Assembly (NCBI RefSeq): GCF_030291135.1
Contig: NZ_CP127409.1
Coordinates: forward strand, 2,418,001-2,482,000
Reading direction: 5' to 3'
DNA length: 64,000 bases
From: Rhodanobacter thiooxydans
Lineage (GTDB): Bacteria; Pseudomonadota; Gammaproteobacteria; Xanthomonadales; Rhodanobacteraceae
Both the position numbers and the translations under genes were made by a program. The notes below the pieces were generated by a model. The model ran no database searches. It was not told the origin of the DNA and worked only from the letters and a program-made list of their open reading frames with translations. Positions 1,784 to 3,256 of this stretch are shown in pieces (position 1 is the first letter of the stretch; each line of letters starts with the position of its first letter).

Positions 1784-3169
1784 TCAGATCGCCAGCCACA
1801 CGTAGCAGTAGAGCGTGTTGTTGTCCTTGGCGTTGCGCCCTGCGCCGTCGACGTCGTGCACGCGTCCGCTGAAACGGTTGAAGTAGGTGTATTCCAGGCC
1901 CAGGCGCACGTTGGCCCAGGGCTCGTGCCACGAGCTGGACTGGCCGAACGGGCTGTAGTCGAGTTCGATGCTTTCGCCCTGGGTGTTCGGCGAGCCGTCG
2001 TTGCCGTAGAGCGTGACGTCCTTGCTGCCGTTGTAGACGAACGACGCCAGGGTCACGCCGTAGGTGTGGCGGTACCAGTAGCTTCCCTTGAGGTTGAGCG
2101 ACTGCAGGGTGTTGTGCAGGTTGTCTGATCCGCCGCCGCCCCAGGTGGCGTCCAGCTTCTGGCTCTCGTGGACGTACAGCCCGTCGACGGTGATGACGTG
2201 GTCGCCGTTGGCGTATATGTAGCTGGAATCCACGCCGAAGTCGCGGAACCGGTCAGTCGGCCCGGGCAGCGCCACCGCGTCACCGATGTCGTTGGTGCCG
2301 ACCTGCCCGCGGCGCATGTTCAGCATGAAGCCGCCGACGGAGAAGCTGCCGGTAGGCAGGTTCCAGGTGTAGGCCACGCGCGCATACGGCGTGACCCCGC
2401 TCAGGCGGCCGTCGTAGCCGGCGTTGACGTGGCGCAGGAAGGACGGTGACAGCGAGCGGTAACCGCCGGCTTCGAAGTACCAGGCGCCGTCCAGTTGCAT
2501 GTAGGCGCTGGCACCCACCACCTGCGCAGCCAGGCCGCCGAGCAGCATAGGCTGGGCCGGTGCCCCGGGGGCCAGGTCGGCCGACATGTAGGGGTACTTC
2601 CACGCCGGTGCAGTGTTGAACACATCGCTGACGGTGGGGTTGTTGTTGAGCGAGATGCCCCAGATGCCGCTATGGCTGCCGTGGCTGAACATGCGCGCGT
2701 AGCGCCAGTCCATGTTGTCCCAGCCGAGCAGGCCGCCGTTCTCGGAGTAGGTCGCCTGGGCGAACACGCCCATGTGCTCGCTCAGTCGCCCGGCCAGAAA
2801 CACCGAGGCCTGCTGCAGCTCGGTGTTGTTGTTGGTGCCGAAACCCTTGGCCGGAGCTTCCGTCTGGGCTTTCTGCGTGTGCGTGAAGGACTCCACCAGC
2901 ATCGCCGAAAGCGGGATGTCGGTCTGGTCGCCGACCTTCATGGTGTAGCCCATCAGCTTGAACTGGCGCCCGAACTGGGTGAGTTCCGGCCCGAAGCCGC
3001 CTACATGGCAGGCCACGCAGGGCTGCTGGGTCTGTCGTGCGTACGAAGGCACCGCCGATGCCAGGGTAGGTATGCCCAACCACGCGAGCGCGACCAGCGC
3101 GATCCACCGCGGCGGTCGGGACAAGGCGGCGAACCAGCTCGAAACAAGGCTATTCCGGCGAGTATCCAT
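1784..3169 (-). CDS. Exported monoheme cytochrome with C-terminal presumed beta-barrel (Cyc2-like?)
   Basis: A 461-residue protein starting at the ATG at 3169, with GGAG 7 bases upstream; a GTG at 3184 and an ATG at 3175 are in frame but poorly spaced. Residues 1-39 form a signal peptide with a hydrophobic core at 22-36 and an ASA cleavage site. A single c-heme motif, CVACH, occupies 51-55 and is followed by a conserved FGRQFKLMGY segment (66-75). The remaining roughly 380 residues alternate polar and hydrophobic stretches rich in Tyr, Gly, Asn and Trp, as expected of an outer-membrane barrel. Short N-terminal cytochrome plus porin is the layout of Cyc2-type fused cytochrome-porins, which move electrons across the outer membrane. 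That assignment is inferred from layout and motif. An uncharacterised cytochrome family with the same leader is the alternative. A perfect FNR-type box lies 73 bases upstream. Confidence 0.6.
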   Translation of the reverse strand: MDTRRNSLVSSWFAALSRPPRWIALVALAWLGIPTLASAVPSYARQTQQPCVACHVGGFGPELTQFGRQFKLMGYTMKVGDQTDIPLSAMLVESFTHTQKAQTEAPAKGFGTNNNTELQQASVFLAGRLSEHMGVFAQATYSENGGLLGWDNMDWRYARMFSHGSHSGIWGISLNNNPTVSDVFNTAPAWKYPYMSADLAPGAPAQPMLLGGLAAQVVGASAYMQLDGAWYFEAGGYRSLSPSFLRHVNAGYDGRLSGVTPYARVAYTWNLPTGSFSVGGFMLNMRRGQVGTNDIGDAVALPGPTDRFRDFGVDSSYIYANGDHVITVDGLYVHESQKLDATWGGGGSDNLHNTLQSLNLKGSYWYRHTYGVTLASFVYNGSKDVTLYGNDGSPNTQGESIELDYSPFGQSSSWHEPWANVRLGLEYTYFNRFSGRVHDVDGAGRNAKDNNTLYCYVWLAI

Positions 3170-3242
3170 GTACATGCTCCCCACGATTCCAGCGTGATGA
3201 CTGGGTGTGGGTGCAGTCTTGGCCTAGCGGATGCGCCGGATA

Positions 3243-3256
3243 TTGATTCCGATCAA
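3243..3256 (-). promoter_or_regulatory. FNR/Anr/Dnr-type binding site
   Basis: TTGAT-TCCG-ATCAA is a perfect match to the FNR/Anr half-site consensus with the correct 4-base spacer. It ends 73 bases before the start of the cytochrome-barrel gene and lies between that gene and the end of tldD, so the cytochrome gene is the only sensible target. A class II FNR promoter would need a -10 near 3221-3216, where only a weak AAGACT is seen. This suggests induction at low oxygen or by NO, but transcription was not measured. Confidence 0.7.

Follow-up and report, generated by a model that had tools for sequence, protein, structure and literature searches.

The gene at positions 1784..3169 on the minus strand of the window (the whole 64,000-nucleotide stretch of Rhodanobacter thiooxydans DNA analysed here) presents two questions. 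What kind of protein does it encode, and does the palindrome upstream of it, which resembles the binding site of FNR/Anr-type regulators, tell under which conditions this protein is used? Cyc2 homologues are reported from many bacteria that are not known to oxidize iron, and their role there is left open as a stated question (PMC5566968, PMC8406198).

Gene and protein organization

The open reading frame delimited mechanically is 3184..1784 (minus strand); it starts with GTG 3184 and gives 466 residues. The ATG at 3169, which gives a cyc2-like protein of 461 residues, is probably the better start. A candidate ribosome-binding site, GGGGAG (3177..3182, minus strand), is located 7 bases before this ATG, and most orthologues of the genus have their start codon in the same column, as judged by eye from the upstream alignment. 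The initial annotation had placed the palindrome 73 bases upstream and a single CXXCH at residues 51-55. The distance fits ATG 3169, and the residue numbers fit the 461-residue chain, where CVACH was found.

The protein chain begins with a signal peptide (3053..3169, minus strand), assigned by eye in agreement with the initial annotation and ending ...TLASA before V45 in the 466-residue numbering. It is followed by the stretch AVPSYARQTQQPCVACHVGGFGPEL and then by about 400 more residues. The Cyc2-like signature AVPSYARQT is encoded at 3029..3055 and the heme-binding motif CVACH, the only CXXCH in the 466-residue frame, at 3005..3019 (both minus strand). A PXL motif (PEL) comes next, with five residues between it and the heme-motif His.

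The gene stands alone, flanked by a yjgA-like gene and tldD (both named by eye). In the open reading frame lists of the locus, no cytochrome gene was seen directly beside it, as had been noted earlier, and no multiheme partner cytochrome either. The interval from the yjgA-like gene to the 3' end of the cyc2-like gene contains an inverted repeat of 43 bases (1555-1648), with arms that are 86% complementary and 8 bases apart. No other copy of its 17-base core was found in the window at up to two mismatches. The repeat is located beyond the 3' end and was not adopted as part of the control of the gene.

Predicted structure

At least 582 relatives of the protein were confirmed by a scan of genome contigs. 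The best-scoring 80 were kept for analysis, and the sample therefore leans to close relatives. The AlphaFold2 model was calculated from an alignment of the mature protein with 70 of these best 80; the relatives left out by hand, mostly near-copies, were L050, L051, L053, L055, L059, L062, L069, L075, L079 and L092. The model of the 422 mature residues (pLDDT 92.3, pTM 0.90) consists of an N-terminal heme domain of about 47 residues with three short helices (2912..3052, minus strand) and a β-barrel of 16 long strands (1790..2911, minus strand), together with two strands of three residues.

Foldseek and VIA-align matched the model to 16-stranded porins, with E-values down to 1.6e-9 and Z of about 21. 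The matches include OprP (2O4V), OprO (4RJW) and 5O78 (VIA-align, Z about 21), which are templates reported for Cyc2 proteins (PMC8406198, PMC10654088). Both Cys residues and the His of CXXCH, as well as the Leu of PEL, are invariant in all 71 aligned rows. The initial annotation had recognized about 380 barrel-like residues and proposed a structure prediction as a check on them. The prediction bears this out, since the fold obtained is that of a porin with 16 strands, preceded by a heme domain, and not a non-barrel fold. The protein would be exported and inserted into the outer membrane by its barrel, and the short N-terminal domain would carry one heme c, covalently attached.

Relation to Cyc2 proteins

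No credible sequence match to the protein was found in Pfam, NCBIfam or the PDB. Among the relatives the curated families gave two stray weak matches, each in one member out of 71, and none that is credible; the family profile found no credible match in the PDB. Because no curated family matches the protein, its naming rests on motif, fold and literature. The published Cyc2 signature is AXPXFAR[Q/K][T/Y] before CXXCH, with PXL four amino acids downstream (PMC8406198). In the window protein the corresponding fragment is AVPSYARQT, with Tyr where the published consensus has Phe. Among the best 80 of at least 582 relatives, the strict signature occurs in 45 and the form with Phe or Tyr in 66, counts that are biased upward because A[VI]P[SA][YF]ARQT, one of the two search patterns of the contig scan, contained this stretch. 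PXL is located within 15 residues of CXXCH in 77 of the same best 80 of at least 582. Phe is present in the signature of several genus orthologues that were found without the signature pattern. The length and domain organization of Cyc2, with at least 365 residues in total and a 16-stranded porin, are also found in the model. The reading as a Cyc2-type outer-membrane electron conduit, put forward as a possibility in the initial annotation, mostly holds. It is supported by the predicted porin with its heme domain and by an N-terminus similar to the Cyc2 signature, from which it departs by one conservative replacement.

This kind of protein is already known, also in this bacterial family, because homologues have been reported. 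In PMC10654088, Acidithiobacillus Cyc2 is reported to be linked with a dense cluster in which Rhodanobacteraceae homologues are found, and PMC5566968 describes Cyc2 homologues in two Thiomonas strains and in a Rhodanobacter of culture KS. The nearest named relative among the best 80 of at least 582 belongs to Rhodanobacter sp. FW104-R8 and is 89% identical. A second Cyc2-like protein, 32% identical and with the strict form AVPSFARQT, is encoded in the same genome (G000:C1:2795426-2796655), where it sits among apparent cell-surface sugar genes. As it is described in PMC5566968, the KS homologue could correspond to the window protein or to this paralogue. Some match was found in 29 of 35 other genomes of the genus (short and weak only in G006) and in none of 24 sampled genomes from other families of the order.

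Conservation of the FNR-type site

The palindromic box of FNR/Anr type is located at 3243..3256 and reads TTGATTCCGATCAA on the plus strand and TTGATCGGAATCAA on the minus strand. It is the one perfect match in the window, against 0.02 expected, and also the only site in the window for the pattern TTGAYN4RTCAA. In the 3.52 Mb genome the perfect box occurs at 5 sites and the reversed pattern at none. Three of the other four perfect sites are inside apparent coding sequences (TolC-like, coq7-like and a transporter, named by eye). For this reason the perfect box taken alone is weak evidence, and it was rejected as a proof by itself.

The box becomes strong evidence because it is conserved across the genus orthologues. 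Twenty-four matches in the genus have at least 63% identity, and 21 of them were examined (L005, which is the window, to L025); L026 was dropped, its N-terminal part being masked, and G012:C46 and G024:C11 came without a locus. TTGAYN4RTCAA is found upstream in 20 of the 21 orthologues, window included, at 218-272 bases before the heme codon. The sole exception, L018, is one base off the pattern. By eye, the half-sites form the best-conserved non-coding stretch before the ribosome site in the genus alignment, and the four spacer bases vary.

Six distant relatives in the genus (L028-L033), which by eye look like members of the paralogue's group, have no box within 400 bases at up to two mismatches. 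The locus of the paralogue itself (L134) contains none at up to one mismatch, and a control common to both paralogues was rejected on this ground.

The best 80 of at least 582 relatives overlap with the genus set, some loci being from the same genomes. In 43 of these 80 the box is no more than 450 bases from the heme codon, and in none is the reversed pattern found there; first-order random copies gave the box in a mean of 0.09 of 80 and in at most 2 of 80. Hand counts from the record titles give the box for 22 of 27 loci whose label is Rhodanobacteraceae, Lysobacteraceae or one of their genera, for all five labelled Thiomonas and for none of ten with alphaproteobacterial labels. L118, which belongs to these ten, does have a site, but at 499 bases upstream it is beyond the 450-base limit.

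The relationship of the same best 80 of at least 582 relatives and the window protein was assessed with a quick, unrooted maximum-likelihood tree. Presence of the box requires 7 changes on this tree, against a mean of 27.1 when shuffled, and none of 500 shuffles was as low, a clustering that near-copies help. Thiomonas, Rhodanobacteraceae and Lysobacteraceae come together under a branch with SH-aLRT support of 96; the box is present in 43 of its 49 rows, and L097 is the one row with the box outside this clade. The 37 relatives without the box are divided into 31 outside the clade and 6 within it. Two rows of the tree are doubtful, L079 (gappy) and L081 (long branch). The box appears to follow largely one supported clade.

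Promoter geometry

In a class II FNR promoter the box is centred at -41.5 and the -10 hexamer is expected 22 bases after the box. The candidate -10 hexamer of the window gene, AAGACT (3215..3220, minus strand), is located 22 bases downstream of the box. With three of six matches to TATAAT it is weak, and better hexamers are found in many relatives. Removal of duplicates from 63 box-bearing loci left 57 distinct promoters, which are related and not independent, and every hexamer downstream of the box was scored against TATAAT at offsets 0 to 49. Hexamers with at least four of six matches were found in 18 of the 57 at offset 21, in 6 at offset 22, in 4 at offset 23 and in no more than 3 at any other offset. 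Hexamers that combine T at position 1, A at position 2 and T at position 6 number 9, 11 and 5 at offsets 21, 22 and 23, and no more than one at any other offset. In the relatives, the spacing from the box to the putative -10 element is apparently that of an FNR-activated promoter. A consensus scan for a sigma-70 promoter between 1445 and 3340 found none. The absence of a match is what one would expect with an activator in the role of the -35 element, and it counts neither for nor against such a promoter.

Genomic context and proposed electron path

The only PF01355 (HiPIP) match of the genome (G000:C1:1452912) and the only PF00127 match (2930572) have no box in the 3 kb around them at up to one mismatch, and thus no co-regulated partner was found in this genome. 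The c4/triheme pair pointed out in the initial annotation (12.3-14.6 kb) has no TTGAYN4RTCAA either, and a linked operon in this genome was rejected.

It is important to consider the neighbours of the gene in the best 80 of at least 582 relatives. A HiPIP gene is located divergently upstream in 7 of the 80 loci (Rhodanobacter B04 and B05, Dyella), and in 5 of those 7 the box is between the two genes. An azurin-type gene is found within 3 kb in 7 of the 80; in 5 of them it follows the cyc2-like gene directly, on the same strand. HiPIP and azurin are high-potential carriers. A cytochrome c group is linked in 21 of the 80 loci, 20 of which have no box within 450 bases; the linked gene is just downstream on the same strand in 19, upstream in L107, and in L118 it is a doubtful open reading frame inside the gene. 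One or two members of each neighbour group were checked by profile: HIPIP (PF01355), Copper-bind/azurin (PF00127, TIGR02695) and Cytochrom_C (PF00034). HiPIP-looking neighbours in alphaproteobacterial loci were not counted as HiPIP, as the one tested had no Pfam match.

Box-less relatives of the Zoogloea/Derxia type (for example L116:5274-7700) have a recurring row of genes on the same strand, made up of a b561-like gene (named by eye, at 9 loci), the cyc2-like gene and a gene for cytochrome c, often near response-regulator-like genes. This row may be a differently regulated version.

The reading that we favour, and consider reasonably probable as a whole, is that the gene of a Cyc2-type porin is activated by FNR/Anr at a class II site and that the protein transfers electrons through the outer membrane, with Fe(II) as the probable source and inward as the probable direction. 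As oxygen falls, an FNR-type protein would bind the box (class II, about -41.5) and the gene would be transcribed. The exported protein would receive heme in the periplasm and fold as an outer-membrane porin. The heme would then accept electrons from an external donor, most likely Fe(II), and hand them on to a small periplasmic carrier of the HiPIP, azurin or cytochrome c type, which would feed nitrite and NO reductases or a high-affinity oxidase. The path from Fe(II) to the carrier is suggested by the biochemistry of Cyc2 proteins and by the neighbours in some relatives. We infer likewise the heme attachment, the location, the activation at low oxygen, the direction, the donor and the partner. 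An isolated Rhodanobacter from culture KS is reportedly unable to oxidize Fe(II) alone (PMC11366258), which counts against the Fe(II) path.

The same FNR-controlled conduit could have a role other than Fe(II) respiration, with electrons passing outward, or coming from electrodes, humics or partner cells, at oxygen limitation; this is possible but rather unlikely. Rhodanobacter is mostly known as heterotrophic, and FNR control would suit the disposal of surplus electrons when oxygen is short. The occurrence of Cyc2 homologues in many bacteria not known to oxidize iron (PMC5566968, PMC8406198) points the same way. However, the characterized Cyc2 proteins oxidize Fe(II) (PMC8406198). Outward flow in particular is opposed by the HiPIP and azurin neighbours of some relatives, which suit inward flow, and by the fact that no multiheme partner was seen beside the gene.

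Regulators of the host genome

Four proteins of the Crp family were identified in the genome by PF00325. Three of them contain CX2CX5C with a central Cys and the recognition helix ETVSR, and the fourth is Clp-like. In an alignment of one FNR-type regulator to FNR proteins of solved structure (E 2.4e-55), four Cys are matched; the score of this regulator, 226.8, is 1.2 bits under the NCBIfam Fnr cut-off of 228 bits. The pattern TTGAYN4RTCAA is present at 22 places genome-wide, against 2 for the reversed pattern. Among the part of these 22 sites whose surroundings were inspected, the box is just upstream of a one-piece (quinol-type) norB and of hemN, and it also lies in the interval that separates an fnr gene from a divergently oriented gene for cytochrome b561. 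One more site is about 150 bases after nirK. A further site, L130:8250, precedes nadA (quinolinate synthase) by about 190 bases, which makes this gene a candidate target that was not expected. Two nirK genes score above the family cut-off (G000:C1:939452 and 2934327), each about 2 kb or less from a gene for an FNR-type regulator, and two full-length NorB matches are present.

A nirK above the cut-off is found in 20 of the 22 genus genomes with an orthologue of the cyc2-like gene and in 7 of the 14 without (p = 0.014, 36 genomes, with kinship ignored). The exceptions with an orthologue are G020, which is 82% complete, and G035, which has fragments only. For NorB the corresponding counts are 20 of 22 and 9 of 14 (p = 0.084, kinship again ignored).

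The initial reading of the palindrome as an FNR-type box is strengthened by its presence in nearly all genus orthologues, by the same box before anaerobic genes and by the FNR-type regulators encoded. That an FNR-type protein binds the box and activates the gene at low oxygen is well supported as a prediction from sequence. The gene would join the low-oxygen and denitrification regulon, because the regulator would be of FNR/Anr type and act at a class II site.

It is improbable that the box is bound by another protein of the Crp/FNR family (Clp or an NO-responsive one) or serves as a repressor site, with an expression that does not follow oxygen. The Clp-like protein would be one candidate, and FNR-type clusters also react with NO. 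However, TTGAYN4RTCAA is a consensus of FNR-like type, the FNR cysteines are present in three of the four PF00325 proteins, and no cysteine-free protein of the Dnr/NnrR type was seen among the four. The box-to--10 spacing in the relatives is apparently that of an activator. Less probable still is a protein that is a porin first, its heme domain being a gate, sensor or structural plug and its barrel passing a small anion for anaerobic life: the fold does match general and phosphate-selective porins, and passage of nitrate or nitrite would suit a denitrifier, but the heme motif is invariant in 71 of 71 rows, and the dedicated electron carriers beside the gene in some relatives would be needless for a solute porin.

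Significance of the conserved promoter

In the favoured reading, an FNR-activated Cyc2-type conduit, the kind of protein is known, and what would be new is that most of a clade has retained the FNR promoter. No report of a cyc2 gene under FNR control was found in the literature searched, which had most subscription journals outside its coverage. In the available text of PMC5506826, FNR occurs only inside a reference title.

A wider proposal is offered tentatively, as one that could well prove wrong. The proteins of Rhodanobacteraceae, Lysobacteraceae and Thiomonas may form a distinct Cyc2 subfamily, FNR-controlled since early in the clade. In bacteria that are mostly heterotrophic, the gene would then be an anaerobic-respiration gene that feeds electrons from Fe(II) or other extracellular sources to denitrification by means of HiPIP or azurin as the shuttle in the periplasm. 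Rhodanobacter is a genus of soil and groundwater and a common denitrifier of contaminated groundwater. The promoter, conserved in most of the clade, gives a hint of when the protein is used, namely when oxygen is low and nitrite and nitric oxide are being reduced. With one gene and one promoter to work on, the nitrate-dependent oxidation of Fe(II) by Rhodanobacter thereby becomes testable.

Comparison with known systems

The window protein was compared by motif, fold and literature with Acidithiobacillus ferrooxidans Cyc2, Mariprofundus Cyc2PV-1 and Leptospirillum Cyt572. It shares with them a signal peptide, a single N-terminal CXXCH with an AXPX[F/Y]ARQT-like motif before it and PXL after it, and a predicted barrel of about 375 residues and 16 strands that matches the same porin templates. 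It differs by the Tyr that replaces Phe in the signature. The gene stands alone, in contrast to the cyc2-cyc1-cup-cox-rus operon (PMC10654088). The promoter appears to be of FNR type, whereas the iron-oxidation genes of A. ferrooxidans are treated as controlled by RegB/RegA (PMC5506826). For the Cyc2-like proteins already reported from Rhodanobacteraceae and Thiomonas, an FNR site is not mentioned in the available text of PMC10654088 and PMC5566968. With norB and hemN, taken as genes activated by FNR/Anr in the same genome, the gene has in common the same box at a short distance from the start. Unlike these two, the putative target is an outer-membrane cytochrome-porin and not a reductase or a heme-synthesis gene.
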